Below, piece by piece: positions 3 to 23,689 of a stretch of 23,834 nt of DNA (its first letter is position 1; each line of letters starts with the position of its first letter). Below the pieces are notes generated by a model. The model worked only from the letters and a program-made list of their open reading frames with translations, was not told where the DNA came from and did not search any database. A program made the position numbers and the translations under genes. The stretch comes from a virus, in the IMG/VR virus record IMGVR_UViG_3300042691_039494, positions 1-23,834 of that record; one strand, 5' to 3'.

Positions 3-164
3 GTTGCTGAATCTATCGTTGAGTATTGTTATAATAATTATTATGCTCGAATGATGGATGATGATTCAATTGAGTTTGGGAATATATGGTTAAGACTTAA
101 TCGATACATCGAATTAAATTATGAGATGGAAATAAAAGATTGGTATAATAAAAATTGTGGTTAA
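3..164 (+). CDS. C-terminal end of an unknown protein (5' partial)
   Basis: An open frame enters from the left edge and runs 53 codons to TAA at 162-164. The visible residues are rich in Asp, Glu, Asn, Tyr and Trp (for example ARMMDDDSIEFGNIW and YEMEIKDWYNKNCG), which suggests a soluble acidic tail. I recognise no family. The stop lies only 17 nt before the lysozyme start, and the TATTTATA motif of that gene begins on the last base of the stop region. The start of the gene is outside the window. Confidence 0.7.
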   Translation, partial: VAESIVEYCYNNYYARMMDDDSIEFGNIWLRLNRYIELNYEMEIKDWYNKNCG

Positions 165-172
165 TATTTATA
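165..172 (+). promoter_or_regulatory. TATTTATA motif, putative phage promoter
   Basis: TATTTATA on the coding strand, 9 nt before the ATG at 182. It is one of sixteen similarly placed copies in the window. Confidence 0.5.
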
Positions 173-181
173 GATAAAAAT

Positions 182-772
182 ATGAAGATTATTATTACAG
201 AATGGATATTTAATGATTTAGTTAATAAAATATTAGGTAAGTCCGATCAACAAAAATCATCAACTGGTAAACAGAAGTACGATGGTTCAACATTAAGTGT
301 TAGTGCTAATATATGGCCGTTTTTGAGGGAATGGGAAGGTGACCCAAAGAATAGAAAGAATGGGGTTAAAGAACCTAAATATAAGGCTTATAAGGATGCT
401 GTTGGTGTTTGGACAATTGGATATGGTCATACGTTAAATGTTAAACCCACGGACAGATTAAAATCCAAGAAGGAGGCTGATGATTTATTGGTTCAGGATG
501 TTAGGGAGAATGCTAATTATGTGAGAAAAATATTATCTGATTGGAAATCAAAAAAAATTCCTGGACATATGATAACTCAAGGACAATTTGATGCTTTGGT
601 TTCATTATCATTTAATTCGGGTATTGGTAATTTGAGAAAATCACAATTGATACAAGCATTAAAAAAGGGAGATGATAAAAAAGCTGCCGAGTTGTTAAAA
701 ACATATAATACTGTTGGTTTATCTGGAGTATCTAAACGTAGGGAAGGAGAATTAAAATTATTTCAATCATAG
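182..772 (+). CDS. GH24 (T4-type) lysozyme with N-terminal packaging-like tag
   Basis: This 196-residue protein is a muramidase cleaving the MurNAc-GlcNAc bond of peptidoglycan. The GH24 domain spans about residues 45-196. The catalytic Glu is probably E52 (EWEG). D72 and T78 (YKDAVGVWTIGYGHT) match the Asp and Thr of T4 lysozyme. About 10-15 extra residues lie between E52 and D72 compared with RrrD-like enzymes. The first residues, MKIIITEWIFNDLVNKIL, follow the tag shared by many proteins here and contain an I-T-E site. A low-complexity linker (about 20-40) joins tag and enzyme. ATG 182 was preferred to TTG 155 because only it gives the shared tag and leaves the promoter-like motif outside the gene. 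The metallopeptidase gene follows 3 nt downstream, so they are probably co-transcribed. The enzyme could be a head-packaged or tail lysozyme rather than the endolysin. Confidence 0.9.
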   Translation: MKIIITEWIFNDLVNKILGKSDQQKSSTGKQKYDGSTLSVSANIWPFLREWEGDPKNRKNGVKEPKYKAYKDAVGVWTIGYGHTLNVKPTDRLKSKKEADDLLVQDVRENANYVRKILSDWKSKKIPGHMITQGQFDALVSLSFNSGIGNLRKSQLIQALKKGDDKKAAELLKTYNTVGLSGVSKRREGELKLFQS

Positions 773-2028: not shown

Positions 2029-3501
2029 ATGAAAAAAATAATAAAGTTAACGGAAAACCAATTAGCTAAATTGGTTAGAAATATAATCAAGGAAGATGAG
2101 GGATTACCAAATAAAGTAATTCAGGGGATTGGTAAGGATAATTATGATTATAAGAGAGAAAATGGTAAATATTATACTAAATTGAAAACCTCTAATAATT
2201 GGATTAATGTAACAGGAACAAAATACGAAGAAAATATTAGAAAATTAATTTTCAATGATTATGCAAATTCCCCATCCTCATCCCCGTCCCAATCATCGAC
2301 AATTTCAAAAACAGTACCATTTAAGAACACTACTGAAGGAAATGAATTTAGAAGTTGGGTTATTAAAAATTATCCCAATGTTGCTGCTGCGACAAGTTTA
2401 AGTCCAACAGGTGAGTATAATAATAGTTATATAACAAACGCTTGGAATTATAAAGTCGGAAATGAAAGTGTTGGGGGAAAATTTTTATCTCATAAAAAAA
2501 CTAATTCAAGTAACACTTCTAAAGGTTCTAATTTGTATGGTGTTGACCCATCATCAAGTAAAATATATAGTTCAAAATCAACTGAGTCCGAAGAAGATTG
2601 GTTAGGAATTAAGGGTTATCAAAAACGTTCAATTGAATTAGCACCATTAGAATCAATTCCTCAAGTACTGAAGGGAGCTGCTGGTGATAGGATGAATAGA
2701 GAAATTCATTACATTAATCAGAGATCTGAATATAAAGGGAAACCTTTTTTCATTATTGACCCTAGACTTAAACTTGTAGCGGCATTTGACGAATCACATA
2801 AATTTATAAGATTATCCCAAACCGTGGAAGGTGAGGATAAACAACCGACAAAACCTGTTACCTACCGTGAGTGGTGTGAAACGGCAGGATTCAAATGTAA
2901 GAATCCATCAACTAAATTGGACTGTTTTTGTTCTGGCGATTTGACTAAACAATATTATGTTTTATCAAAGATAGGTAAAAGGTCACTAAGTGCTGGTATT
3001 TATAAGGCTGGTGGTACAAGTTATCAATCTCATTATACCGGAGCCAAAAATGTTGATAATGTGATTAAAATAAAAACTCAATCAGGTCTTGAATTACCTT
3101 CAGCAATTCATGCTTTAGTTCCCATTTCAAATAGAATAGAGGCTGATGCAGAATTAAAAAAATATTTAGGGGATGCACAAAAAACCGGTAAAATTCCACA
3201 ACAATATAATGACCTTATTAATAATATGATTGGTAGTAAAAAATACGACTTATCTACAGGTTGTTTTAATGTTGACGCATCATTTGCAAATGATAGTAGA
3301 GTATTAGATATCGCCAAAAAAGGTGCGATGATATTTGTTATGTCTGAAGATAAAGATTATTATTTAGTACAAATGGATAACTCACAAGGAGCCGAATTCT
3401 TCAATGAACTTAAAGGAGAAAATGGATTCTGTAAAAAACCAACGTCAATCGCAACTCAAGTAGGTGGAGAACCTATTGATATAAGAAAAACAACTGCATA
3501 A
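2029..3501 (+). CDS. Tagged L,D-transpeptidase-like (YkuD-type) protein
   Basis: A 490-residue protein in three parts. Residues 1-25 carry the shared tag (MKKIIKLTENQLAKLV...IIKE|D) with two (L/I)-x-E sites. Residues 25-210 are a Ser/Asn/Thr-rich region with no recognised domain. The C-terminal part, about 220-475, resembles an L,D-transpeptidase. It has FFIIDPRLKLVAAFDESHKF, like the first strands of YkuD domains, a His in AIHALVP (H361) and the Cys motif LSTGCFNV (S409, C412). These match the H...S/T-x-GC signature, with Asn in place of the usual Arg after the Cys. Family members form 3-3 peptidoglycan cross-links or attach proteins to peptidoglycan. A Cys-rich insert (WCETAGFKCK, CFCSG) is unusual. 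The convergent gene next door is a shorter relative with a signal peptide instead of the tag. Hydrolytic instead of transpeptidase activity is possible. Confidence 0.7.
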   Translation: MKKIIKLTENQLAKLVRNIIKEDEGLPNKVIQGIGKDNYDYKRENGKYYTKLKTSNNWINVTGTKYEENIRKLIFNDYANSPSSSPSQSSTISKTVPFKNTTEGNEFRSWVIKNYPNVAAATSLSPTGEYNNSYITNAWNYKVGNESVGGKFLSHKKTNSSNTSKGSNLYGVDPSSSKIYSSKSTESEEDWLGIKGYQKRSIELAPLESIPQVLKGAAGDRMNREIHYINQRSEYKGKPFFIIDPRLKLVAAFDESHKFIRLSQTVEGEDKQPTKPVTYREWCETAGFKCKNPSTKLDCFCSGDLTKQYYVLSKIGKRSLSAGIYKAGGTSYQSHYTGAKNVDNVIKIKTQSGLELPSAIHALVPISNRIEADAELKKYLGDAQKTGKIPQQYNDLINNMIGSKKYDLSTGCFNVDASFANDSRVLDIAKKGAMIFVMSEDKDYYLVQMDNSQGAEFFNELKGENGFCKKPTSIATQVGGEPIDIRKTTA

Positions 3502-3506
3502 AAAAA

Positions 3507-3533
3507 AACACCACATTGTGGTGTTTTTTTTTA
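3507..3533. terminator. Bidirectional intrinsic terminator
   Basis: Arms AACACCACA and TGTGGTGTT (3507-3525) are flanked by A-runs on the left and T-runs on the right, so the hairpin can act on both strands. It separates the two convergent L,D-transpeptidase-like genes. Confidence 0.9.
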
Positions 3534-4367
3534 TTTGACTAAATAATTATTTGTATTTTCACCGATAACAAAAACTAATGAATTAACTGATTCATTTTTA
3601 GTTAGTTCTATAAATTTTTCGGGTACATTAATACAACCGAAAGAATTGTTAAAAGTACCGTTATTAATATTGTTTAGAACAACATTTCTAAAAGAATTAG
3701 GTACATTAATTTCATCAAAATTATTCCCAACTAACGATACTAGATTATTCATATTTTTAATTCTGTATTCACTTTTGTAAAGACTATGTATTGCTAATGC
3801 TAAATTTTTACCATCTAAGGTATTAATATTAAAAGTATTTTCACCTTTTCCTACGAATCCGTTGCTATGAAATTTTTTTGTAATCTGATAAACCCCTTTT
3901 GGAAAAAATCTACATTGAGTTTTTGCTAAATGAGTATATACCAAACTATTAGAATAATGTCTTTTTTTACCTGTTATATCGACATACTGTTTTTTATTAT
4001 CGTCCCATTTAAACCCAATGTCAATTACGTGTTCATACCATGTCTTTAAAGAACCATCAATCTTACTTTCATTTTGTTTATCAAAACCATCGATTGTTGG
4101 TGATTTTGCAACAAAATCACCTTTTTTATCAAAGAAGAAAATCAGATTTTCTCTTGTATCCACAATAAAAAAAGATTTATTTTGATATTTTTCAGATTTT
4201 CTAACAAGAATATATTGATTAGTAATTCGTTCAGGCATCCCTAATTTAATCAAAGAATCTCTATTTATGTTTGGTTCAACAAAAGTTAGTTTGTTGATTA
4301 CCCCATTAATTTTTATTGTATAAAAAGAGATAGATAAAACACTCAGGATTAGAAGTAATTTACTCAT
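3531..4367 (-). CDS. Secreted L,D-transpeptidase-like protein
   Basis: A 278-residue protein. Its hydrophobic N-terminus (MSKLLLILSVLSISFYTIKI) reads as a signal peptide or anchor, so it probably acts in the periplasm. From about residue 65 it parallels the tagged protein at 2029-3501: FFIVDTRENLIFFFDKKGDF, then AIHSLY (H194) and NNSFGCINVPEKF (S242, C245), a YkuD-like His and S-x-GC pair. A shared region with Tyr/Trp and Cys (about 105-155) also aligns by eye, so the two are probably paralogues. This one has no tag and no TATTTATA motif, and a TAnnTTTG sequence lies upstream. It may modify host peptidoglycan during infection while the tagged copy travels in the virion. That split is inference. 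Confidence 0.7.
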   Translation of the reverse strand: MSKLLLILSVLSISFYTIKINGVINKLTFVEPNINRDSLIKLGMPERITNQYILVRKSEKYQNKSFFIVDTRENLIFFFDKKGDFVAKSPTIDGFDKQNESKIDGSLKTWYEHVIDIGFKWDDNKKQYVDITGKKRHYSNSLVYTHLAKTQCRFFPKGVYQITKKFHSNGFVGKGENTFNINTLDGKNLALAIHSLYKSEYRIKNMNNLVSLVGNNFDEINVPNSFRNVVLNNINNGTFNNSFGCINVPEKFIELTKNESVNSLVFVIGENTNNYLVK

Positions 4368-5872: not shown

Positions 5873-6475
5873 ATGAGAGCATTATTATTAGTAGTAGTGT
5901 TGTGTTTAATAGTATCAGGAGACACTAGTTATCCACAAACATTACAAAAAGAAAATGATATTCCAGAGGTTACAAATGAAACTTTTGCAAAACAAATATC
6001 TAACAATTATAATCCAGAAACAGAACATCCATTTGTTGAGTTTTGTGATAAACACCAAGAAATTGCAATATACTATCATATAGAGTGTGGGATTCCTGTA
6101 AGTATTCAATTAGCTCAAGCCATTACTGAAAGTGGTGGAGGTAATTCAGAATTAGGAAAAGTCGCGAATAATCTATTTGGTATGAAATATTATAAGGAAT
6201 TATTCAAAGGAGATTTTTACACATCACCTGGTGGGACTCAATGGAGAAAATATGACTCATTTGAGGAATCATTCGAGGATCATGCAAATTTCTTACATAC
6301 GTATTATGGGCATGCGGTTGGTAAGAATTGGTTATATTGGGTGAATCATTGTGGAGGTTATGGTGGACCTGGATATTGGAAACATATTGGTAATGTTATC
6401 GAAAAATATAAATTATATGAGTACGATAATATTGTTGATTTTAATATAAAAAACAAAAAAACTTATAATTTATGA
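5873..6475 (+). CDS. Secreted GH73-type N-acetylglucosaminidase
   Basis: A 200-residue peptidoglycan hydrolase of the FlgJ/LytG glucosaminidase family, expected to cleave the GlcNAc-MurNAc bond. Residues 1-16 (MRALLLVVVLCLIVSG) are a signal peptide, with a Cys inside the hydrophobic core but no clear lipobox. The catalytic domain, about 55-190, shows IPVSIQLAQAITESGGGNSELG with the likely catalytic E86, then ANNLFGMKYY and YDSFEESFEDHANFLHTYY, all family hallmarks. There is no tag, so it is probably exported in the infected cell. Its stop TGA overlaps the ATG of the next gene (ATGA), which implies translational coupling. It might be an accessory lysis enzyme or may act on the envelope before lysis. 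Confidence 0.88.
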   Translation: MRALLLVVVLCLIVSGDTSYPQTLQKENDIPEVTNETFAKQISNNYNPETEHPFVEFCDKHQEIAIYYHIECGIPVSIQLAQAITESGGGNSELGKVANNLFGMKYYKELFKGDFYTSPGGTQWRKYDSFEESFEDHANFLHTYYGHAVGKNWLYWVNHCGGYGGPGYWKHIGNVIEKYKLYEYDNIVDFNIKNKKTYNL

Positions 6476-6660: not shown

Positions 6661-6690
6661 AAAACCCCTCTTTTATGAGGGGTTTTTTTA
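6661..6690. terminator. Bidirectional intrinsic terminator
   Basis: AAAACCCCTC (6661-6670) and GAGGGGTTTT (6677-6686) form a 10-bp stem with a 6-nt loop and T-runs on both strands. It separates convergent genes. Confidence 0.95.
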
Positions 6691-7518
6691 TGAGATTTCT
6701 CCTGTTATTTTTTTATAATATTGTTTTGCTTTTTCTCTTTTCAGAGGAATTCCGGTTACGGCAACAGGATTAGTACTGTTAGCGTAATATTCCCAACTAT
6801 GTCCAGGTCCAGCATTTTGTCTAAACGCTTCTTGAAATGCTTTTTCAAAGTCACTGATATCCTTTATTTTTTTAAAATAACAAGATAATGCTTTGGCGGC
6901 GTTTGATGGATCTTCCATTAGTTCAGGATTTGACACAAAACTAATACCTGTACAATCTTGGGCGGCTTTATAATTTCCTTTGAAGGTAATTCCGTTGAAT
7001 CCTCTGCCAACATACAAGTATCCTTCGTCAGGAGCATTTCCATACATTCCACCATATACAGCATCGAAAAACAATTTATCTGATTTTTTTATTCTGTTTA
7101 ATTGACTATCTGACATCTTACCTAATTTGGATGGGAAAATTGCTCGTATTCTACCATTTGAGGTGTTCTTATAACTAGCTTCCTTAAACGTCTTGAATCC
7201 GCTTTCACCACCAACAACACCCATCACACCAGCAGCGGCTTCATCCGTGAATCCATCTTCTTTAAGTTGTTCAAAAACGATTTGTTCATTTGTATTTAAT
7301 CCTTTAACGTCTGATACTGAAATTTTCTTTTTTTCATCTTCAGAGTCTTCAGTATCTGAAGATTCACTGTCAGTTGATTCGTCATCTTCTTTTTCTTTTT
7401 CTATAGGTAAAAATAAATCTATAGCCCTTTCTAATTTTGACATAGATTCATCTTCTGATAACAAATATAATTTTCTGATGTGTTTTTTATCTTCTTCAGT
7501 AATAATAAATTTTTTCAT
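6688..7518 (-). CDS. Tagged GH19-like / phage tail lysozyme-like hydrolase
   Basis: A 276-residue protein with three parts. The tag is MKKFIITEEDKKHIRKLY followed by LLSE|D. Next comes a very acidic linker (about 38-66, KEDDESTDSESSDTEDSEDE). The catalytic domain (about 75-275) has an N-terminal helix pair with GVMGVVGGESGFKT, where E105 is the probable catalytic acid. It also has VGRGFNGITFKGNYKAA and SNPELMEDPSNAAKALSCYF, which parallel the GRG-x-x-Q-T/NY and P-x-L...A...FF signatures of GH19 and related phage lysozymes. The start at 7518 was chosen because the upstream extension would run through a terminator and the TATTTATT motif. It probably cleaves peptidoglycan during entry. Confidence 0.8.
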   Translation of the reverse strand: MKKFIITEEDKKHIRKLYLLSEDESMSKLERAIDLFLPIEKEKEDDESTDSESSDTEDSEDEKKKISVSDVKGLNTNEQIVFEQLKEDGFTDEAAAGVMGVVGGESGFKTFKEASYKNTSNGRIRAIFPSKLGKMSDSQLNRIKKSDKLFFDAVYGGMYGNAPDEGYLYVGRGFNGITFKGNYKAAQDCTGISFVSNPELMEDPSNAAKALSCYFKKIKDISDFEKAFQEAFRQNAGPGHSWEYYANSTNPVAVTGIPLKREKAKQYYKKITGEIS

Positions 7519-7532
7519 TAAACTATTTTTAT

Positions 7533-7540
7533 AATAAATA
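7533..7540 (-). promoter_or_regulatory. TATTTATT motif, putative phage promoter
   Basis: Minus-strand TATTTATT lies between the terminator at 7551-7580 and the start at 7518 (14 nt). The terminator-motif-start order is good evidence that the motif initiates transcription. Confidence 0.55.
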
Positions 7541-7550
7541 TCATATAAAA

Positions 7551-7580
7551 AAAAAGGTGTTCGATAGAACACCTTTTTAA
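7551..7580 (-). terminator. Intrinsic terminator
   Basis: AAAAAGGTGTTC (7551-7562) and GAACACCTTTTT (7567-7578) form a 12-bp stem with loop GATA, a few bases after the stop of the T9SS-domain gene. It is symmetric but acts usefully on the minus strand. Confidence 0.93.
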
Positions 7581-7581
7581 A

Positions 7582-8808
7582 TTATTTAATGATTTTATAC
7601 GTTTCAGTATTTCCATTGGTTTTTATAACTGCGTTATACATTCCAGGACTCAGATTTTTTGTATTAATTTCAAATTTATTAGTAATACCGAATTGGAATG
7701 AGTTTGATAAAACTTCTTTACCTATACTATCATAAATTTTTAATTCACAAGGTCCGAAATAATCCCCAAGATTTTGAATTTTTATAAAATCATTAAATGG
7801 GTTCGGATGTAGAATAATTTTATTAATATAATCTTTAACCTGTACTACTGAGATATTAGAATAATGATGATTATCAAGTTCAACCATCTTTAACCTGTAG
7901 TAGGTGTATCCATTATAAATAGGTGATTCGTCAACAAATTGGTAATCATATGTTCCGATTTCGGTGGGATAAACAACACCTATTGAATCAAAATTATATG
8001 CGTCAGTTGATTTCTCAATAATAAAATATTCACCAGGTAAGGTAGTATTTGCTCTCCAACTAACTATTACGTCTTTATTATTTTTATCGTATTCAGTTCC
8101 AAAATAGATGAGTTGGATTGGGAAAATGGTACAATCATAAATTTCTTCAAGTAGTACGTTATCTATCCACCACTCTTCACCTGCTGAATTTACACGACAA
8201 AGTATATCAACAGCGATTTGAGTTGGTCCAGGAGGAATTGTTAACTGTATTACAGAAAATCCATCACCAGTTGCAGTTCTATTACCTCCAGCGACTGGTG
8301 TGTAAAAAGTGGCAACCCCATTTGCGGTTTTACTTGCAACACCTAAAGTATTATAATCCCAAGTTGCATTACCAAAACCACGAATACGCATTTCACCAAA
8401 ATATGTTATTCCACCATCTGTACTTAGTTGAACTTCCACAAAATCTGTATTATCAACACCTCGTGTTGTTGCAGTGGGTCCTGAAAATACATAAGACGCT
8501 AATCTAAAAGAGAATCTATGGGTTGAAGTTGGGTTGAGTCCGTTAATGTTTGGCATAACATACCAATCTTGTTCTAAACCCGAAGTACCGTTACCTGCGC
8601 CATAGATTACAGCACTAAGATTTGGTGATACTGAAGCGTTATTAAAAAAACCAGTATTAGTGGTTGTGGTATTTGGAGGGGTTCTCCACCAATCACCACT
8701 CCAATTAAAAGTTTCCATATTATCAAAAGCGATAGTATCAATACAAGTTTGAGACTTTCCAAAGAAACTTGTTAAACATAAAAGTAATAAAAGGATTGTT
8801 TTTTTCAT
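7582..8808 (-). CDS. Secreted beta-rich protein with type IX secretion (type A) sorting domain
   Basis: A 408-residue exported protein. Residues 1-19 (MKKTILLLLLCLTSFFGKS) are a signal peptide ending at a typical Bacteroidota site. About 20-225 is a beta-sandwich-like region (YVMPNINGL, FVEVQLSTDGG, WWIDNVLLEE), reminiscent of adhesin or MAM-like modules found in T9SS cargo. About 230-325 looks like a fibronectin-type strand set (VIVSWRANTT, YYRLKMVELD). The last 80 residues match the T9SS type A C-terminal domain: ILHPNPFNDFIKI, ELKIYDSIGKEVLS, LSPGMYNAVIKTNG and the basic end YKIIK. The host T9SS would move it to the cell surface. Phages seldom carry such genes, so it may block superinfection or alter adhesion, or may have been picked up from a host. 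A TATTTATT motif precedes it. Confidence 0.88.
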   Translation of the reverse strand: MKKTILLLLLCLTSFFGKSQTCIDTIAFDNMETFNWSGDWWRTPPNTTTTNTGFFNNASVSPNLSAVIYGAGNGTSGLEQDWYVMPNINGLNPTSTHRFSFRLASYVFSGPTATTRGVDNTDFVEVQLSTDGGITYFGEMRIRGFGNATWDYNTLGVASKTANGVATFYTPVAGGNRTATGDGFSVIQLTIPPGPTQIAVDILCRVNSAGEEWWIDNVLLEEIYDCTIFPIQLIYFGTEYDKNNKDVIVSWRANTTLPGEYFIIEKSTDAYNFDSIGVVYPTEIGTYDYQFVDESPIYNGYTYYRLKMVELDNHHYSNISVVQVKDYINKIILHPNPFNDFIKIQNLGDYFGPCELKIYDSIGKEVLSNSFQFGITNKFEINTKNLSPGMYNAVIKTNGNTETYKIIK

Positions 8809-11406: not shown

Positions 11407-11892
11407 TTATAAAGAAATATCTAATTTAGAACCATCAGGTAATTCCACCATAGCGTTCCTCAATTTTGAATTTCCACAATCCTCAATTCTTTGATCACAA
11501 GTATTCAAAAAACCATTTTTAATAACTGGCAGACCATTAATTTTGAATTCTTTCATTACTTGAAAAACGGGTCTTTTTTGTTCAGTGGATGCTGAGACAC
11601 CCTGTGTACCAGGACGTTCTTGACCTTGTCGAACCACACTAGTGTCATCGAGATAAATTGCTTTTAGATAACCAACATGTTTATTTTGAATTAAGTTGTT
11701 ATATAAATTTTGTGCCTCAAGAAGAGTCATTCTTGGTCCTTTAAAAAGATTTTTATAATTTGTTGCAGTTGCAGGTATTTTAATTACATCTGTATTTGGG
11801 TTGGATGGAAAGGAATCAGTTGTTTGTTCACTGATAACTCTTTTCACTAATTTAACTAAGTCACTCTCAGTTAACCTTATAATTCTTTTCAT
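11407..11892 (-). CDS. Tagged small protein of unknown function
   Basis: A 161-residue protein with the best copy of the tag: MKRIIRLTESDLVKLVKR then VISE|Q. The tag is nearly identical to that at 4473, although the rest differs. After a Thr/Ser/Pro-rich linker (about 24-45), the body contains FKGPRMTLLEAQNLYNNLIQ, a Gln/Arg/Ser-rich turn, then VFQVMKEFKINGLPVIKNGF and two Cys (CDQRIEDC), ending in a strand (MVELPDGSKLDISL). No known domain. It may be a packaged protein, as inferred for the other tagged genes. Confidence 0.75.
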   Translation of the reverse strand: MKRIIRLTESDLVKLVKRVISEQTTDSFPSNPNTDVIKIPATATNYKNLFKGPRMTLLEAQNLYNNLIQNKHVGYLKAIYLDDTSVVRQGQERPGTQGVSASTEQKRPVFQVMKEFKINGLPVIKNGFLNTCDQRIEDCGNSKLRNAMVELPDGSKLDISL

Positions 11893-12731: not shown

Positions 12732-13535
12732 TTAAACTAACAATAGTTTTTCAAATCTTTTAAATTCGTGTTTTCTGTGATCTAAACCATTATAACCACC
12801 ATTTACTCTTTTACTTACTTTTGTTACAACTTCTTCAGACGCACCTTCATCACATACATTCCAAAGGCTTGTGTTGTTAAAGAAGAACGCCGCAGAACCT
12901 AGAGGATATTTTGTAGCAACCAAATCAGGGTTTGCGACACAATCTTCGCCAATAAAACCAGAGAAAACTTGATAGTTTTGTTTTCCTGTTAATTGGATAT
13001 AACCGCGACCACGGAATTTCCATCCTTCTTTGGTTGTTTCATCGCCATTACCCAATCTACTACCATAAACACGAGAAGCTATCTTCTCAGGTTGGTGAGC
13101 GTATGACTCGGCTAGTGTACCCGGAAAATACTTAGGAAAAATTCTTAACAATCCATCTTTAGAATAATTAAGGTTTTCAGAAACAGCTTTGAAATTACCT
13201 GATTCAGTTGAACATTGTGCCAAAAAGTGACATAATCTCAAATTGGTGATAATTCCAAATTTATCAGCAATCATTGCGATTTCAGAAATTACCACATCAG
13301 GTATTTGACCTTTTAGTTTTTCTAATTTTAATGTCTCTTTTTCGACTTTTGGAAGAGATACTCCCATTTTTTCGAGTGTCGCAGGACCTGCAATACCATC
13401 GGCAACTAAACCATTTTTAGTTTGCCATTCTTTAAGTGCTTTGTCAGTACCAGGACCGAATGCACCATCGGCAGTAATGCCTAATTTTGTTTGGAGTTGT
13501 TTAACTAATTCTCCTTGTGAACCGATTTTTAACAT
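12732..13535 (-). CDS. Endolysin: PG_binding_1 + GH19 chitinase-type lysozyme
   Basis: A 267-residue protein. Residues 1-58 form a PG_binding_1 domain (VKQLQTKLGITADGAFGPGT, QTKNGLVADGIAGPATLEKM). Residues about 75-267 form a GH19 domain, with FLAQCSTESGNF holding the likely catalytic E111, FRGRGYIQLTGKQNY, and GSAAFFFNNTSLWNVCD. This layout is a standard phage endolysin that degrades the glycan strands at lysis. It has no signal peptide and no tag, unlike the other GH19-like protein at 6688-7518, which suggests separate jobs: lysis here and entry there. Its TATTTATA motif lies back-to-back with that of the histidine kinase gene. Confidence 0.93.
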   Translation of the reverse strand: MLKIGSQGELVKQLQTKLGITADGAFGPGTDKALKEWQTKNGLVADGIAGPATLEKMGVSLPKVEKETLKLEKLKGQIPDVVISEIAMIADKFGIITNLRLCHFLAQCSTESGNFKAVSENLNYSKDGLLRIFPKYFPGTLAESYAHQPEKIASRVYGSRLGNGDETTKEGWKFRGRGYIQLTGKQNYQVFSGFIGEDCVANPDLVATKYPLGSAAFFFNNTSLWNVCDEGASEEVVTKVSKRVNGGYNGLDHRKHEFKRFEKLLLV

Positions 13536-13552: not shown

Positions 13553-13560
13553 TATAAATA
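13553..13560 (-). promoter_or_regulatory. TATTTATA motif, putative phage promoter (divergent pair)
   Basis: Minus-strand TATTTATA, 17 nt before the endolysin start. It forms an inverted pair with the plus-strand copy at 13583-13590. ACTAA (about 13568) and TTAGT (about 13579) between them add a small inner inverted repeat. Confidence 0.5.
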
Positions 13561-13582: not shown

Positions 13583-13590
13583 TATTTATA
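13583..13590 (+). promoter_or_regulatory. TATTTATA motif, putative phage promoter (divergent pair)
   Basis: TATTTATA, 20 nt before the histidine kinase start at 13611. Confidence 0.5.
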
Positions 13591-13610: not shown

Positions 13611-15734
13611 ATGTCAATCAAGGTTAAAATTTCTATTTACTTTTCAGTTTTAATTATGTCAATTTTCTTTATAATGAAGATGATCTCATTATTTTTTATA
13701 AATGACGCACCACAATTAATCAAAATAATTGAGTTATCTTGTTTTATTATTTTTTTACCATTTTTTTCAATTTTAGTGAAAGAATATTATCACAAATTAA
13801 AACATAATATAAAATTAACAAAATACTCCAAAAAACTTAACAAAGTTCTTATTTCACAATCACACAATTCATTATTTTATCAAGGAAATGTAAAGGATGG
13901 GGCAAAAACTTTAACAAAAGAAGTTACAGAATCAATCAATACTGATAGATGTTCAATTTGGTTATATAATTCAGATAAAACCTCAATTATTTGTCAACAA
14001 CTTTATATTAAAAAAGAAGATGAATGGTATAGTGGTGTGGAAATGTTTAAAAAGGATTTCAGTTCTTATTTTGAACATTTAGAAATTGATCCGATTATTA
14101 TTGCTAACAATGCGGAAACTCATACCGCAACATCTTGTTTTTCGGAAGGATACTTAAAACCACTTGGTATTAAATCAATGTTGGATGTACCAATTATGTA
14201 TAAAGGTGATATAATTGGTGTTGTTTGTATTGAGAGTGAAACCCCAAGGGAATGGATTGAATTAGAAGTTAACTTTGCTCAAATGTTATCATCACTATAT
14301 TCTTTTGCTTATTCAGTTAAAGAAAGTAATATTTTGAAGGATAACTTATATGAGTTTGAAAAGTTTGTCGATACGTCTGTTTTAGTCTCTAAAGCTGACA
14401 ATAAAGGTAAAATAACATATGTGAATAAAAAGTTTGAGGAGGTGTCTGGGTGGTGTTTAGATGAAGTAAGAGGAAAGGATCATAGTATTGTTAATTCAGG
14501 TAGACATCCAAAGGAGTTTTGGGTTAATATGTACCGAGAAGTGGTAGTTGAGAAAAAGATTTGGAATGAGGTTGTAACCAATAAATCAAAAACTGGGGAA
14601 TTATATTGGGTTGATTCTTATATAAAGGGGGATTTCGATGAAAATGGTAAGTTTTTGGGTTATATGTCAATTAGATATGATGTTACTGATGTAAAGAAAA
14701 AAGAAATTGAGATTCGAAATAGAATGACGGCAATTAACACATCCAATATGGTTATTGAGTTTGACTTGGATGGTAAAATTATGTTTGCTAATAATTTATT
14801 CTGTGAAAAAATGGGATATACAGAAAAAGAATTGAAAGGTAAACATCATAGAATTTTTGTTTCGAAGGAATATTCAAAATCACCTGAATATAAAGAATTT
14901 TGGAAATTGTTGAGAAGTGGTGTTTATGTTACTGATGAGTTTTTAAGGTTTACTAAAGATAAAAAACAAGTTTGGATTCAAGCCTCATATAATCCAGTAT
15001 TTGGAGTTGATGGTAAAGTACAAAGGGTAATGAAAATTGCAACAGATATAACTGATAGAATCACACAATCTATTGAGATTGAGAAAAAGAACACCTATTT
15101 AGAACACGCTGCTAAGATTTTAAGACACGATATGCACTCAGGTATTAATACATACATACCTAGAGGTGTTAGCTCTTTAGAACGAAGATTAACACTTGAA
15201 CAAATAGAGGATTTAAAAATATCTGCACCATTTAAAATGATTAAAGATGGATTAGCTCATGCACAAAAAGTTTATAGAGGTGTTTATGAATTTACAAACT
15301 TAGTTAAAAAAGATGTTGTATTAAATAAAACAGAATGTAATTTAAAAAGTATTTTAGAAAGTTACTTAGCAACAACTTCATACAAAAGTCAGGTTCATAT
15401 CGATGAACTAATAACTAAAGATGTGAACGAGTCATTGTTTTGTACCTCCATTGATAACCTGATAAGAAATGGTTTGAAATATAACGATTCTGACACAAAA
15501 TTTGTTAAGATATTTATGGAGGGTGATATTTTAATAATACAAGATAATGGTAGAGGAATCACTCAACAAGATTTTGACCACTTATCAAAACCATACACAA
15601 GGAAAGAAGGACAAAAAGAGAGTGGTTCTGGATTGGGTTTGAATATTTGTGTTGCAATTTTAGAAGAACACGGATTTGAGATTACTTGTGAAAAAAATGA
15701 AATTGGTACTAAAATGAAAATAAACATAAAATAA
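13611..15734 (+). CDS. Membrane sensor histidine kinase (GAF-PAS-PAS-HK)
   Basis: A 707-residue sensor kinase. Two membrane helices lie at about 8-30 and 36-57. A GAF domain spans about 85-230 (TDRCSIWLYNSDKTS, SMLDVPIMYKGDIIGVVCIE). Two PAS-PAC units follow at about 246-362 (ITYVNKKFEEVSGW, YDVTDVKKK) and 372-483 (IMFANNLFCEKMGYTE, ATDITDRI). The phosphoacceptor segment ILRHDMHSGIN has H506. The ATPase has N-box SIDNLIRNGLKYND, G1 IIQDNGRGI and G2 GSGLGLNIC. All catalytic motifs look intact. A receiver gene follows after 13 nt, so this is a complete two-component pair inside what appears to be a phage genome. The input ligand is unknown. No tag. Confidence 0.93.
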   Translation: MSIKVKISIYFSVLIMSIFFIMKMISLFFINDAPQLIKIIELSCFIIFLPFFSILVKEYYHKLKHNIKLTKYSKKLNKVLISQSHNSLFYQGNVKDGAKTLTKEVTESINTDRCSIWLYNSDKTSIICQQLYIKKEDEWYSGVEMFKKDFSSYFEHLEIDPIIIANNAETHTATSCFSEGYLKPLGIKSMLDVPIMYKGDIIGVVCIESETPREWIELEVNFAQMLSSLYSFAYSVKESNILKDNLYEFEKFVDTSVLVSKADNKGKITYVNKKFEEVSGWCLDEVRGKDHSIVNSGRHPKEFWVNMYREVVVEKKIWNEVVTNKSKTGELYWVDSYIKGDFDENGKFLGYMSIRYDVTDVKKKEIEIRNRMTAINTSNMVIEFDLDGKIMFANNLFCEKMGYTEKELKGKHHRIFVSKEYSKSPEYKEFWKLLRSGVYVTDEFLRFTKDKKQVWIQASYNPVFGVDGKVQRVMKIATDITDRITQSIEIEKKNTYLEHAAKILRHDMHSGINTYIPRGVSSLERRLTLEQIEDLKISAPFKMIKDGLAHAQKVYRGVYEFTNLVKKDVVLNKTECNLKSILESYLATTSYKSQVHIDELITKDVNESLFCTSIDNLIRNGLKYNDSDTKFVKIFMEGDILIIQDNGRGITQQDFDHLSKPYTRKEGQKESGSGLGLNICVAILEEHGFEITCEKNEIGTKMKINIK

Positions 15735-15747
15735 AAATTAGAAAAAA

Positions 15748-16182
15748 ATGATTGAAACGTTAATGTTGGTAGATGATGAGGACTTGTTCCATTTAGTATT
15801 TGAAGACGCTTGTTCTTTATTAGATATTAGTCTTTCACTAAAATCTTTAAATAGTTCTGATGAAGCGGCAAAACTATTTCAAAAATGGTTACAAGGTGAT
15901 TTTTCAGATAGACCTGAGTGCGTATTCGTTGATTTAAACATAATTGGTTCTTCCTTTGATGGTATAGAATTGATTAGAAAAATTAACTTTGAGTATGGTA
16001 ATAATGTGGTTATAGGGATTATATCATCGTCTAATGAACCTGAAGAACAAGCAAAGGCAGTTCAAGCTGGAGCTCAATTTTGGATTATAAAATCTGATGA
16101 TATTGAACCTAGGCTAGAAGAATTCAAAAAAGATTATGAAGGCTATAAAAAAAGAACCGCGCCATTTAAGGTATATAAATAA
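15748..16182 (+). CDS. Stand-alone response-regulator receiver domain
   Basis: A 144-residue REC domain without an output domain. Acidic pocket D9/D10 (LMLVDDED), phosphoacceptor D62 (VFVDLNIIG), S93-S95 in the switch region (GIISSSNE) and K115 (FWIIKSDD) are all present. It probably takes the phosphate from the kinase encoded 13 nt upstream. Its last base is the first base of the next start codon (TAATG), so translation of the three genes is probably coupled. With no DNA-binding part, it should act through protein contacts, perhaps with the membrane coiled-coil protein next door. Confidence 0.92.
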   Translation: MIETLMLVDDEDLFHLVFEDACSLLDISLSLKSLNSSDEAAKLFQKWLQGDFSDRPECVFVDLNIIGSSFDGIELIRKINFEYGNNVVIGIISSSNEPEEQAKAVQAGAQFWIIKSDDIEPRLEEFKKDYEGYKKRTAPFKVYK

Positions 16183-16859
16183 TGAAATTTAATAAGGATA
16201 CAAAACAAGAGTTAATAGAATTACTCGAAAAGAAAAATATTGGGTTAGAAGGAAATATTTTGAAGATAATCGATTCTTCAGATGATCCTGATTTTACCAA
16301 ATATGTGGAGAATTGTAAGGAAAAGGATAAAGAAACAAGAAAAAAAAGGTTAGAAATAACAAAACAAGTTCAGGAAAAGAACAAAGAATTGATTGAGGTT
16401 AATGGTGAAAATCAAAGGATAATGGAGGAACTCCAAGAAACCTTGAAAGAGGTTGAAGATTCTAAAATTACCTTTGAAGTTCAAAATAGAGAACTGATAG
16501 CATGGAAACAAGATAACGAAAGAATTAGTATCGAACTCCAACAAGAGATGGCTAAGTCAGAAATGGCTAGAATTGAGGCTGAAAGTGCTAAAATGTCAGC
16601 GATTAATGATTTGGATGTATTACAAAAGAAAACCCAAACAGAATTAATTGGTAGCATTGTAAAAATTGCTTTGGGTGTAATAATATCTATTGGTATAATT
16701 ACAACATTTATGTATATTTTAGCTTTAGTTGTTAATAAAGACACTCAAATGATAGGTTCAACATGGTCTAATATGTTGGGTATATTATTAACAAATGCTT
16801 TTAGTATAATTGGGACAATAATGGGGGTTAAATACTCAGGAAAGGGAGATAAAGAATAA
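16182..16859 (+). CDS. Membrane-anchored coiled-coil protein
   Basis: A 225-residue protein. Residues about 1-50 are charged. About 50-155 is a long coiled coil (EITKQVQEKNKELIEVNGEN, MEELQETLKEVEDSK, ELQQEMAKSEMARIEAESAK). Two hydrophobic helices follow at about 160-185 (IVKIALGVIISIGIITTFMYILAL) and 195-217 (WSNMLGILLTNAFSIIGTIMG), so the C-terminus is in the membrane. The start overlaps the receiver stop. It may be the partner or output of the receiver, inferred from position only. No family recognised. Confidence 0.8.
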   Translation: MKFNKDTKQELIELLEKKNIGLEGNILKIIDSSDDPDFTKYVENCKEKDKETRKKRLEITKQVQEKNKELIEVNGENQRIMEELQETLKEVEDSKITFEVQNRELIAWKQDNERISIELQQEMAKSEMARIEAESAKMSAINDLDVLQKKTQTELIGSIVKIALGVIISIGIITTFMYILALVVNKDTQMIGSTWSNMLGILLTNAFSIIGTIMGVKYSGKGDKE

Positions 16860-16874
16860 TATTTAAATATTATT
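16855..16874. terminator. AT-only palindrome between convergent genes, weak terminator candidate
   Basis: A perfect 20-bp palindrome of A and T only contains both stop codons of the converging genes (TAA at 16857 and minus-strand TAA at 16870). The stem is weak and T-runs are short, so termination is uncertain. Confidence 0.4.
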
Positions 16875-17481
16875 GTTTTAGATGATTCATTAAAACCCCG
16901 CCTAGTGTTCCTGCATAAACTAACAGGTGATTTATTGTTTCTGAGTCTAATTTTGTTTTTCTTTTTGTGTAATCAACACCTAAAACACCGATAAATTTGT
17001 TATCAATTGTTTTAATTGCAAAACTATATTGTGACTTACATCCAGTTTCTTCGGCCAGATATTTTAGTCCGTGAGTTGCAATAGTTTCATCTTTAAAATC
17101 GGATATTTCAATAATGTCTTTTTCCAACAAATGATTAATTGATTTACTAAATAAATTAACAGGAATATTTTGGAAGTTAGTTTGTTTTGAATGGGTATTA
17201 GTCCCCACAACTTCATAAATAATACTAAATTTAGCCATTGATTTTCCTGTAGGATAGAAATTACCTCCATTGTGGAATTGTGATATCCATACACGATCAC
17301 AATGTAGTTCATCTCTAAGGTCTTCAATTTTTGATGTCACTAGTTGACTAATTTTTAAAGTTTCTTTCACCATATCTGGTTTTTTACTCTTACTAAGTTT
17401 GTTTTTTGCGTATAAAATACTTAGTGGACCAACAACCCCCATAACACCAGTTATAAAAGCGACAATAATTTCAGTTGACAT
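16870..17481 (-). CDS. Membrane-anchored GAF-domain protein
   Basis: A 203-residue protein with one N-terminal membrane helix (about 4-26, IIVAFITGVMGVVGPLSILYA). Residues about 40-200 form a GAF-like domain, including CDRVWISQFHNGGNFYPTG, CKSQYSFAIKTIDNKFIGVLGVDY and a closing helix. It has no kinase, cyclase or other output. It converges on the histidine kinase operon and may be an accessory sensor or adaptor for it, which is inference. Its own TATTTATA motif lies 30 nt upstream. Confidence 0.78.
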   Translation of the reverse strand: MSTEIIVAFITGVMGVVGPLSILYAKNKLSKSKKPDMVKETLKISQLVTSKIEDLRDELHCDRVWISQFHNGGNFYPTGKSMAKFSIIYEVVGTNTHSKQTNFQNIPVNLFSKSINHLLEKDIIEISDFKDETIATHGLKYLAEETGCKSQYSFAIKTIDNKFIGVLGVDYTKRKTKLDSETINHLLVYAGTLGGVLMNHLKQ

Positions 17482-17729: not shown

Positions 17730-18563
17730 TTAAGCTACTTCTGTACTAAGTTTTTTTTGAAGATTCAATTCATACGCTCTTGCCAATCTGGTCATACCAC
17801 AACCCCAACCAAATCTTGGGAAGAAGTCCAAAGATAAGAATTCTTCCAATTCTTTTTCTACTCTTTCCTTACCAAATAATTCAAAAAGTTTAGCTGAATA
17901 GTTTCCTCCTTCAATTGTGTAGAACATTTCCTTCATTCCTTCTTTGTCACAAGAACGTTCAGCTGAACCAATTGTCTCTTGTCCGAATAAGATAACATCA
18001 ACCTTTTGGAATTTGTCACCTTCACCCTTTTGCATATTCCAGAATGGGTTTGTTCTTAGTGGGAAGTTCTGAAGTGAGATTGAATCACCGATTTCATTCC
18101 ACATTTTTGTTTCGTGTTCAGCTTCAAGGATTTCTGTTCCGTATTTTTCACAAAGTTCATTGTAGTCGGCAACAGTCGGAACATCAAAACCAAGATATTC
18201 TAACATTTCTGCTTGAAGTTTAACCATATCTTCTTTTGTACCTTTAGTTTCCACTTCAAACATCGGGAAGATTAAATCATGACGACCAGGGATTGGTGTT
18301 TTCTCTTGTCTATAAGATGTTGAGATACAATACACACCAGGATATTCAGGGTTTTTAAGTAGTTCATACTCCAACCACATTTGACCTGTTTGAGGTAAAG
18401 GCCAAATCTGTCCTGAATATTCAAATTTAGTGATTGAGTGTGGGTTTTCACACGCTGCAAGGATTGACAATCTTGATTGTGTTGGTACTTCCAAGAATCC
18501 TTTTGATTGGAAGAAGTTTCTCATTTTCTGAACTAACTCGTTGTAGATTTTTGTGTTTTTCAT
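17730..18563 (-). CDS. Class II aminoacyl-tRNA-synthetase-like catalytic core (Asp/Asn/Lys branch)
   Basis: A 277-residue protein made of the class II catalytic fold only, without the N-terminal anticodon-binding OB domain of AspRS, AsnRS or LysRS. Visible motifs are motif 1 region VQKMRNFFQSKGFLEVPTQ, motif 2 CISTSYRQEKTPIPGRHDLIFPMFEVE (the Arg and Glu of fRxE are kept) and motif 3 FGWGCGMTRLARA (gxGxxR). ILFGQETIGSAERS resembles the amino-acid-binding strand of the AspRS/AsnRS group. Family members without the tRNA-binding domain include asparagine-synthetase-like paralogues, so it may make an amino acid or an aminoacyl conjugate instead of charging tRNA. I cannot fix the specificity. A possible leader peptide with a terminator lies just upstream. 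Confidence 0.8.
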   Translation of the reverse strand: MKNTKIYNELVQKMRNFFQSKGFLEVPTQSRLSILAACENPHSITKFEYSGQIWPLPQTGQMWLEYELLKNPEYPGVYCISTSYRQEKTPIPGRHDLIFPMFEVETKGTKEDMVKLQAEMLEYLGFDVPTVADYNELCEKYGTEILEAEHETKMWNEIGDSISLQNFPLRTNPFWNMQKGEGDKFQKVDVILFGQETIGSAERSCDKEGMKEMFYTIEGGNYSAKLFELFGKERVEKELEEFLSLDFFPRFGWGCGMTRLARAYELNLQKKLSTEVA

Positions 18564-18851: not shown

Positions 18852-20711
18852 ATGAGTAAAATTTTGGGTATAGACCTAGGGACTACAAATTCGTGTGTAG
18901 CAATTATGGAAAATGGTGAACCAGTGATTATCACCAATTCAGAAGGTAAAAGAACTACCCCATCTATTATTGGATTTATAGATGGTGGTGAAAGAAAGGT
19001 GGGGGATCCTGCAAAAAGACAATCAGTAACAAATCCTGAGAAGACAATCTATTCAATTAAACGATTTATGGGCTCAAATTATGACGAAATTAAGTCTGAG
19101 GTTAAGAGAGTACCATATAATGTCACAAAAGGGAAAAATAACACTCCTAAAGTTAAGATTGATGGTAAGGAGTATTCCCCGCAAGAACTTTCGGCTATGG
19201 TTTTACAGAAAATGAAACAAACTGCTGAGGATTACTTGGGTCAAACTGTAACTGATGCGGTTATTACAGTACCCGCATACTTCAATGACGCTCAAAGACA
19301 AGCAACAAAGGAGGCTGGAGAGATTGCAGGACTAAATGTTAAACGTATTATCAATGAACCAACCGCAGCCGCATTAGCTTACGGACTTGATAAGAAGAAT
19401 AAAGACTCCAAAATCGTTGTTTTTGACTGTGGTGGTGGTACTCATGACGTTTCTATCCTTGAATTGGGTGGAGGTGTGTTTGAAGTATTGTCAACAGATG
19501 GGGATACTCACCTTGGAGGTGATGATTTTGACAATGCAATCGTTGATTGGTTGACATCTGAGTTCAAAAATGACAATAATGGATGGGTTGAGGATTCTAT
19601 GGCGATTCAACGACTTAGAGAAGCATCTGAAAGGGCTAAAATTGAACTTTCATCATCTCAAAGTACTGAAATCAACTTACCTTACTTTATGGTAATTGAA
19701 AATCAACCAAAACACTTAGTTAAAACACTAACAAGATCCAAATTTGAACAATTAATTGACAAATTGGTTGAAAGAACAATTGAACCTTGTAAATCAGCAC
19801 TAAAAAACGCTGGATTAACAACAAAAGATATCGATGAGATTATTTTGGTTGGAGGTTCAACAAGAATTCCCGCAATTCAAGAAGCGGTTAAGAAATTTTT
19901 TGGAAAAGAACCATCAAAAGGAGTAAATCCTGATGAAGTTGTGGCTTTAGGTGCTGCTATTCAAGGTGGGGTGTTAGCTGGTGATGTAAAAGATGTCCTT
20001 TTATTGGATGTTACCCCACTTTCACTAGGTATTGAGACAATGGGAGGTATTATGACTAAATTAATCGATGCAAACACAACAATTCCAACCAAAAAGTCAC
20101 AAATTTTCTCTACTGCCGTAGATAATCAACCATCTGTTGAAATTCACGTATTACAAGGGGAAAGACCAATGGCGAAAGACAATAAAACCATTGGAAGATT
20201 CCATTTGGATGGTATTCCGCCATCAATGAGAGGTATTCCACAGATTGAAGTGACATTCGATATTGATGCAAACGGTATTATCAATGTATCGGCACTAGAT
20301 AAGGGTACAAATAAACAACAAACCATCAGAATTGAATCATCTTCAGGTTTATCCCAAGAAGAAATCGATAGAATGAAGAGAGAGGCTGAAGAAAACGCTG
20401 AAAGTGATAAGTTGGTTAAAGAAAAAGTTGAGAAAATCAATGAAGCTGATAATGTAATATTCAATATTGAAAAGACATTAAAAGATTTGGATGAAAAAAT
20501 TGGTGAACCTCAGAAGGATGAAATAAAAAGTGGTATTGAGCTACTAAAAGAAGCTAAAAATTCAGGGGATGTAACCAAAATAAATGAAGCTCTTGATAAT
20601 GTTAATACTAAAATGCAACAAGTTACTCAGGAACTCTATAGTAATGTAGGACAGACTGAAAACAGTGAAGGATTTACAGGTTCAGACGTTGAATTTGAAG
20701 AAGTTAAATAA
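18852..20711 (+). CDS. dnaK: Hsp70 chaperone DnaK
   Basis: A 619-residue, full-length Hsp70 that binds unfolded peptides in an ATP-driven cycle. The nucleotide-binding domain covers about 1-380: [62 protein letters not shown]. The linker [15 protein letters not shown] is near 378-392. The beta substrate domain follows, then the helical lid to the end. The tail DVEFEEVK is typical of Bacteroidota DnaK. In the phosphate-2 motif, FDLGGGTFDVS is altered to [11 protein letters not shown], two changes beside the active site. No grpE or J-domain gene lies in the window, though an FKBP isomerase and a CxxC-rich protein do. It was probably acquired from a Bacteroidota host. It is preceded by a palindrome and a consensus sigma70 promoter. 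Confidence 0.97.
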
Positions 20712-22609: not shown

Positions 22610-22878
22610 TGGAAAACCTACCATATCAACAACAAATAATTGACAATAAAAAACTAAGAATATTCTCTCCAAACGTTGATTCAGACGAACTGAAATGGCA
22701 TCGTGACAGAGAGAATAGACTTGTTGAGGTATTGGAAGGGGAAAATTGGTATCTACAAATGGATGATGAACTACCTAAGAGGTTGACAGTTGGAGAAAAA
22801 TATTATATACCGATAGGGGTTTATCATAGAGTAATAAAAGGTGATTCTAATCTTAAGGTTCTGATTTCCATATTATAG
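22609..22878 (+). CDS. Small single-domain cupin
   Basis: An 89-residue cupin-fold protein with KWHRDRENRLVEVLEGENWY, then LTVGEKYYIPIGVYHRVIKG and a final strand LKVLISIL. The WH and YH histidines occupy the usual metal-ligand positions of cupin motifs 1 and 2 (G-x5-H-x-H-x3-E-x6-G and G-x5-P-x-G-x2-H), with motif 1 reduced. The ATG at 22609 overlaps the previous stop by one base, so translation is coupled. It is cytoplasmic, substrate unknown. Its 3' end overlaps the convergent CxxC gene by 26 nt. Confidence 0.8.
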   Translation: MENLPYQQQIIDNKKLRIFSPNVDSDELKWHRDRENRLVEVLEGENWYLQMDDELPKRLTVGEKYYIPIGVYHRVIKGDSNLKVLISIL

Positions 22879-23689
22879 TTAAATTACTATACGGTGTTAT
22901 ATTCAATTTCGGATTTTGTAATTCAAATTCAAAAACAAATTCACCGTCTTCCCTATCAACATGAAAATCATAATCGGAATAATCCTCAACTGAATTTAAA
23001 AGTATTACTGAGTCACTAATATACATGATGTCCAATAATGATTCGTCAAAAACATCCCCTTCTTCCATTTTTTTCATTTTATCAATAATTTCAGGATTAT
23101 AGGTTAAATAATTTTGTCTTTCGATTAAAACAGTATCGGTGGTTTCAATATTACCTGAACCACCACATTCATCACAAGAGATGTAACCATTATCACAATA
23201 TTGACAATGTTCATCACCAGTACCGTGACAAGTGTCACATTCTAAAGTTCCACCACCTTGACAGGTATCACAAGATTCACCTTCGGAATCTTCACCATCA
23301 CCACCACAATCATCACAATCAGTATTACCTTTACCACCACAATCACGACAAGTTTCTTCCCCAGTTCCGTGACACACATCACAATTAATTAAACCATCAT
23401 CACATTGATCACATTTTTTTGTTGGATTATGTTCTTCGATATACGATAATCTAAACGCAGTCAAAAATTTATTTACCGCATCATATAAGTCCTCAATATT
23501 TGGATTTTCTTTGAATTTTGGAACCAAAAAACTATATAACGCAATATCCTTACCTTTTAACATTGAATTAAATGCCGGCCTCATTTCAGGATTAGTTATT
23601 AATGCGTAATAAACATCTTTAGGTGTTGCATTACTCGAATAAAACTTATGTGTTTTTTTGATAAAATTTAATAATCTTGATTTTTCCAT
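22853..23689 (-). CDS. Protein with eight CxxC pairs (doubled DnaJ-type zinc-finger region)
   Basis: A 278-residue protein. Residues 1-88 are helical and unrecognised, with no HPD motif, so it has no J domain. Residues 93-180 hold eight CxxC pairs (C93/96, 103/106, 114/117, 125/128, 140/143, 151/154, 162/165, 172/175). Many are followed by GxG (CHGTG, CGGKG, CGGDG, CGGSG), as in the CxxCxGxG repeats of DnaJ. DnaJ has four such repeats binding two zinc ions, and this has eight, enough for four. The C-terminal 95 residues are acidic and beta-rich. It may be a chaperone or protein-binding scaffold, perhaps with the DnaK in this window. That link is inference. The start at 23689 is 17 nt after the upstream stop, suggesting an operon. 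Confidence 0.8.
   Translation of the reverse strand: MEKSRLLNFIKKTHKFYSSNATPKDVYYALITNPEMRPAFNSMLKGKDIALYSFLVPKFKENPNIEDLYDAVNKFLTAFRLSYIEEHNPTKKCDQCDDGLINCDVCHGTGEETCRDCGGKGNTDCDDCGGDGEDSEGESCDTCQGGGTLECDTCHGTGDEHCQYCDNGYISCDECGGSGNIETTDTVLIERQNYLTYNPEIIDKMKKMEEGDVFDESLLDIMYISDSVILLNSVEDYSDYDFHVDREDGEFVFEFELQNPKLNITPYSNLTIIWKSEP

Follow-up and report, generated by a model that had tools for sequence, protein, structure and literature searches.

A conserved kinase–receiver–membrane protein cassette in large uncultured phages: a candidate two-component pathway with a possible role in lysis timing

The window analyzed here (the whole of a 23,834-nucleotide (nt) IMG/VR virus contig, record IMGVR_UViG_3300042691_039494, positions 1 to 23,834) encodes a sensor histidine kinase, a stand-alone receiver, and a coiled-coil membrane protein as a three-gene cassette that recurs, in the same order, in large uncultured phages. 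From their sequences, we consider it highly probable that the three proteins form a working phage pathway that runs from kinase through receiver to membrane protein; that the membrane protein is the direct output of the receiver is also the likelier reading, held with less assurance. The complete proposal, that is, a dedicated phage two-component pathway with the membrane protein as its output and lysis timing as what it probably sets, is tentative and falls a little short of an even chance. An earlier sequence-only reading of this DNA had described a histidine kinase with intact boxes, a stand-alone receiver with D62 and K115, a membrane coiled-coil protein, and their tight coupling behind a TATTTATA motif, all in a phage-like genome; each of these was borne out by the domain searches, alignments, models, and gene-order comparisons described below. 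Relatives were collected from IMG/VR (169 for the kinase, at least 590 for the receiver, and at least 559 for the coiled-coil family); their open reading frames (ORFs) were called mechanically, and membrane helices were called by a simple hydropathy scan.

The three genes are closely coupled: 13 nt separate the kinase stop from the receiver start, the receiver and coiled-coil genes overlap by 1 nt (TAATG), and overlapping ATGA/TAATG junctions are found in 176 of 181 loci. In a sample of 80 receiver loci, the coiled-coil gene is directly 3′ of the receiver gene in all 80 and a kinase gene is immediately 5′ of it in 76, so that kinase and receiver genes are paired; the remaining four loci are two contig edges and two cases with one inserted ORF. 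Sixteen large records were also searched (these are IMG/VR records, not genomes of known completeness); all three genes are present in 11, and none of them is present in the other five. The suggestion that the coiled-coil protein might be the output, made when only the window had been seen, gains much support from this constant order and joint occurrence. The records reach 322 kb, and 11 of the 16 contain a T4-type portal gene; by portal protein, the nearest cultured phages are Microcystis phage Mel-JY01 and Flavobacterium phage immuto. Neither the receiver nor the coiled-coil protein has a match in a reference set of 50,697 phage records; with hundreds of relatives in IMG/VR, the cassette is therefore common in nature yet essentially undescribed. 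The claim that complete kinase–receiver pairs are rare in phages thus holds for the reference records and fails for this uncultured group. A secreted protein encoded in the window (7582–8808, minus strand) carries a type IX secretion sorting tail (Por_Secre_tail) and is apparently exported by a Bacteroidota host; because this tail is of the Bacteroidota type, it suggests that the host belongs to that phylum.

The kinase (13611–15734, plus strand; 707 residues) consists of two membrane helices, a GAF domain, two PAS domains, a divergent H-box (LRHDMHSGINTY), and HATPase_c. Pfam places GAF at residues 98–231 and HATPase_c at 614–705 (51.7 bits), with the PAS fold best matched at 391–476 and more weakly at ~254–298; the H-box, HDMHSGINTY, has no Pfam HisKA match. 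The membrane helices are N-terminal (12–30 and 37–55), leaving almost no periplasmic loop. The phospho-acceptor histidine and the HATPase_c boxes are all present in the window copy (H506-D507, N616/N620, D645-x-G647-x-G649, and G674-x-G676), and these residues are kept in 86–88 of 88 aligned kinases. Among relatives, the core (484–707) has a median of 77% identity to the window copy; for the sensor half, the median aligned portion is 63% of the length, at 53% identity. Thus, the kinase core is conserved, and the sensor half is swapped or lost between relatives. Some sensors combine a hairpin with GAF-PAS-PAS, PAS-PAS, or GAF-PAS, and others lack membrane helices; kinases of a second class carry a signal peptide and a single membrane helix together with a periplasmic domain, which is TPR in one. 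In several phages, two tandem kinases precede one receiver, in some of them one cytosolic and one periplasm-facing. In some relatives (e.g., L031, L144, L154, L166, and L184), a secreted protein of ~200 residues is encoded between the tandem kinases, just 5′ of the periplasm-facing kinase; this protein could be its sensory partner.

The receiver (15748–16182, plus strand; 144 residues) is a single-domain response regulator that matches Pfam Response_reg with 32.0 bits (cut-off, 30.2). The acidic pocket (D9 and D10), the phospho-acceptor D62, S93, and K115 are present in all 77 distinct relatives that were aligned. Across the clade the protein is nearly invariant (mean column identity, 88%; mean pairwise identity, 87%); its codons at conserved residues show 42% synonymous differences, and it is under strong purifying selection. 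Among natural proteins with solved structures, the closest in sequence is 3ilh, a bacterial response regulator. A different stand-alone receiver, CheY-like (105 bits), is encoded at 249575–249901 in a 281-kb record that lacks the cassette (the record behind L259, G006), and no HATPase_c kinase was found in that record.

The coiled-coil protein (16182–16859, plus strand; 225 residues) is modeled as one helix (36–184) followed by a hairpin helix (189–219), with a mean predicted local distance difference test score of 86. Its two C-terminal membrane helices (166–184 and 198–216) form a hairpin that ends in the tail KYSGKGDKE; we infer an N-in/C-in topology. The length of the coil varies within the family; two parts of the protein are nearly fixed, an N-terminal segment, LEGNI, and the membrane helix that comes second (GILLTNAFSIxGTIMGxKY). 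Searches of Pfam, PHROGs, and the PDB by sequence and by fold gave no meaningful relative, and the match in BFVD is one uncharacterized phage protein. In 84,980 cellular genomes, the family matched one contig, which is a phage contig with the same three genes in order (49%, 70%, and 41% identity for kinase, receiver, and coiled-coil protein, respectively) and with terminase-like and PhoH-like genes recognized by eye; 244 other genomes of the phylum of that bin gave no match. The family is therefore virus-specific, that is, found almost only in viruses. This divergent contig (L265; genome G021, contig 2), binned with a 2.1-Mb bacterial genome, shows that the trio reaches beyond the main clade. 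Taken together, diverse inputs that converge on a single constant receiver and a single constant membrane partner are the pattern predicted by a dedicated pathway.

The motif TATTTATA lies at 13583–13590 (plus strand), 21–28 nt 5′ of the kinase ATG, and a mirror copy lies at 13553–13560 (minus strand), 18 nt before the ATG of the divergent gene for a GH19 endolysin. In 1961 upstream regions of related contigs, the motif has 281 matches in the bins from −30 to −11 versus 2–24 per 10-nt bin farther upstream; this clade-wide accumulation identifies a promoter-like element, and the cassette therefore uses the phage's own promoter class. We rejected two other explanations for the motif. It is not a cassette-specific signal, because it occurs throughout the clade and an exact copy precedes only ~16% of the kinases in relatives, roughly the rate for all ORFs. 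Nor is it merely a T4-type late promoter of the divergent gene (TATAAATA) read in reverse; in the positional profile, TATTTATA is found on the sense strand just before the starts, and TATAAATA lies farther upstream, where divergent partners would place it.

The evidence for a link to lysis is the neighborhood of the cassette. The divergent neighbor in the window is a GH19 endolysin with a peptidoglycan-binding domain (12732–13535, minus strand; Pfam and PHROGs), and this gene is found beside the cassette in many loci that have been rearranged. Across 57 distinct loci, 41 of 113 immediate flanking genes (36%) encode peptidoglycan hydrolases versus 19 of 1007 genes farther out (2%); the 41 comprise 30 GH19 endolysins and 11 proteins whose family is related to PHROG endolysin 33083. 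The formal p-value for this enrichment (4e-30) is inflated, because the loci come from related phages that share ancestry. In 15 loci the GH19 gene directly adjoins the cassette on its upstream side and is divergent, in 13 it adjoins the downstream side and is co-directional, and in others it is nearby; its position or orientation changes at least 15 times on the receiver and coiled-coil tree. Eight large records (175–304 kb) contain both the cassette and a close GH19 homologue, and in seven of them the two lie within ~2.5 kb of each other. Retention of this proximity through rearrangement argues for a functional tie. Peptidoglycan-active enzymes are also unusually numerous in 13 kb of the window (155–772; 5873–6475; 6688–7572, minus strand; 12732–13535, minus strand; 2029–3501; and 3531–4367, minus strand); they include phage lysozyme, glucosaminidase, tail-lysozyme-like, and GH19 types, and 2029–3501 and 3531–4367 resemble L,D-transpeptidase-type enzymes (by eye only).

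These observations lead us to the following mechanism, whose biochemical steps, from signal to lysis timing, we infer from sequence. The kinase, held in the inner membrane by its helical hairpin, would use its GAF and PAS domains to read a signal that is cytosolic or membrane-borne; an outside signal would be added by the second, periplasm-facing kinase that some relatives have. The kinase would phosphorylate the single-domain receiver at D62, and the phosphorylated receiver would bind the cytosolic coiled coil or the N-terminal domain of the co-translated membrane protein, altering the conformation or oligomerization of the nearly invariant two-helix hairpin. Because the cassette shares both its locus and its promoter class with the endolysin, this membrane step would most likely act on endolysin release, either speeding it up or holding it back, and thereby set lysis timing. 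The general form of this proposal, a virus-evolved system in which interchangeable cytosolic and periplasmic sensor kinases signal to a nearly invariant receiver that gates a virus-specific membrane protein and makes host lysis by lytic jumbo phages conditional on sensed signals, is put forward with reserve, as a possibility that has somewhat more against it than for it.

Control of lysis by the cassette, taken as a claim of its own, is likewise possible at somewhat under an even chance, and several observations weigh against it in addition to the shared ancestry of the loci. No recognized hydrolase is an immediate neighbor in 25 of the 57 loci, and 18 loci have no GH19 gene within a few genes; in one large record the GH19 gene is 74 kb from the cassette, and two cassette-bearing records have no GH19 match. 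Genes for DnaK, an aminoacyl-tRNA-synthetase-like protein, and a metallophosphatase are likewise syntenic with the cassette, yet they are not lysis genes. Pfam and PHROGs place the coiled-coil protein in no holin, antiholin, or spanin family, and its 225 residues with a ~150-residue cytosolic coil are unlike small holins. It does have the holin-type feature of helices that fit a hairpin with two transmembrane segments and a charged C-terminus; thus, it is not a holin by sequence, and its hairpin topology permits such a role. In some relatives, a gene for a small two-helix membrane protein lies directly 3′ of the coiled-coil gene. We rejected these as named holins; neither PHROGs nor Pfam gives a holin call, and they are holin-like by shape only. 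Neither they nor the secreted protein between the kinases match a named lysis family in these two databases.

The sequence-only reading had proposed that the phage senses a signal or redirects host signaling. The kinase–receiver pair does look functional; however, the endolysin association, which that reading overlooked, points to control of lysis rather than to redirected host signaling. We regard as unlikely a takeover in which host response pathways are the target of the phage kinase and receiver, with cross-talk between the receiver and kinases, phosphotransferases, or targets of the host, and in which the coiled-coil protein serves as a scaffold that holds the two in place at the membrane. 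In favor of a takeover, action in trans is common for single-domain receivers of phosphorelays, the natural solved structure closest to the receiver in sequence is bacterial, and the kinase sensors resemble ordinary bacterial GAF/PAS sensors. Against it, the three genes are inherited as a set, the coiled-coil family is specific to viruses, and the near-invariance of the receiver in phages whose sensors differ is better matched by a fixed partner from the phage than by host partners that vary. Control of superinfection is slightly more doubtful: a second phage or envelope damage would activate the pathway, and the membrane protein would block DNA entry or adsorption without acting directly on lysis. 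The periplasm-facing second kinase and the secreted protein between the kinases suit the detection of envelope events, and T4 couples superinfection sensing to lysis inhibition (PMC11413866), but the repeated proximity of endolysin genes is left unexplained. A phosphate sink, in which the receiver drains phosphoryl groups from host kinases and silences host responses, is improbable; it would account for a stand-alone receiver without an output domain, but it would need neither a dedicated kinase with variable sensors nor a membrane protein that is always co-encoded. Finally, although most genes for kinases and receivers are cellular, as is well established and was seen in the control genomes, passenger host DNA or an assembly artefact, such as the contig join that the sequence-only reading had raised, has a negligible chance of being correct: identical or nearly identical cassettes with the same neighbors occur in several other IMG/VR contigs, hundreds of virus contigs have related genes in the same order wherever examined, the cassette has the phage promoter motif and the same records a T4-type portal, the third gene is nearly absent from cellular genomes, and purifying selection is strong.

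There are few known cases in which lytic phages sense their surroundings (T-even and ICP1 lysis inhibition are examples), and most signaling phages are temperate. If the lysis-timing proposal is correct, large lytic phages would run their own environment-responsive circuit, with a conserved, complete phosphorelay and a virus-only membrane output, in hundreds of uncultured large-phage contigs, and the cassette would be a defined three-gene unit for probing how lysis time is tuned.

The cassette resembles orthodox bacterial two-component systems (HK853-type kinases; the Cytophaga-type receiver 3ilh) in having a HATPase_c kinase with H, N, G1, and G2 boxes adjoining a receiver with the full acidic pocket and phospho-acceptor Asp, Ser, and Lys. 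It differs in being phage-encoded, in the lack of a HisKA match for its H-box, and in its proposed output, which is a co-translated virus-specific membrane protein and not a DNA-binding domain. In the open-access literature we found no described phage-encoded kinase–receiver pair, and neither two-component nor response regulator occurs as a term in a 2026 review of phage communication (PMC13389391). The agr locus of phage phiCDHM1 (AgrD, AgrB, and the AgrC kinase) provides a phage-borne sensor kinase and is stated to have no response regulator (PMC3901668). That locus belongs to peptide quorum-sensing; the cassette instead always has a receiver and a membrane protein, and no AgrB/AgrD partners were recognized by eye among its recurrent neighbors, although no dedicated AgrB/AgrD search was made. 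The cRec receiver domains of jumbo phages share the receiver fold; however, they are described as never found with histidine kinases and as linked to NAD/ADP-ribose enzymes (PMC7824862), whereas the receiver in the window is paired with a kinase. T4 lysis inhibition (holin T; antiholins RI and RIII) is similar to the logic that we propose for the cassette in a T4-related phage: the membrane step that gates release of the endolysin responds to a signal from the environment (PMC11413866). However, we found no sequence relation, the holin T and antiholin RI/RIII families are not among the Pfam or PHROGs matches of the coiled-coil protein, and the signal would pass by phosphorelay and not by direct antiholin binding; the cassette is not a member of the T4 lysis inhibition system.

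A membrane-anchored protein that converges on the cassette (16870–17481, minus strand) had been read as a GAF protein associated with it. The fold was right: the protein has no Pfam match, but the top Foldseek PDB matches of its AlphaFold2 model are GAF domains (E-values down to 5.5e-8). Membership in the cassette was ruled out by gene order in relatives; the gene adjoins the cassette in the window's own lineage, and elsewhere it is 1.8–2.8 kb downstream or farther. A profile–profile comparison with the GAF region of the kinase gave no signal, with very low alignment diversity. Farther downstream, the window encodes a class II aminoacyl-tRNA-synthetase-like protein consisting of the catalytic domain only (17730–18563, minus strand), which is ~52% identical to the ‘tRNA ligase’ of Prochlorococcus phages P-SSM2 and P-SSM7, and a full-length DnaK (18852–20711); near the DnaK gene, a protein encoded at 22853–23689 (minus strand) has DnaJ-like repeated CxxCxGxG zinc motifs and no Pfam match. 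Many otherwise unrelated proteins share the start MKKIIRLTESDLxRIVKRVIxE (77 of 5611 distinct ORFs by pattern), including those that start at 2029 and 4473 and the one encoded at 11407–11892 (minus strand), among others in the window, as well as proteins in relatives such as L133, L030, and L224; this shared start looks like a putative cleavable capsid-targeting propeptide of a T4-type prohead protease, which would mark packaged proteins.

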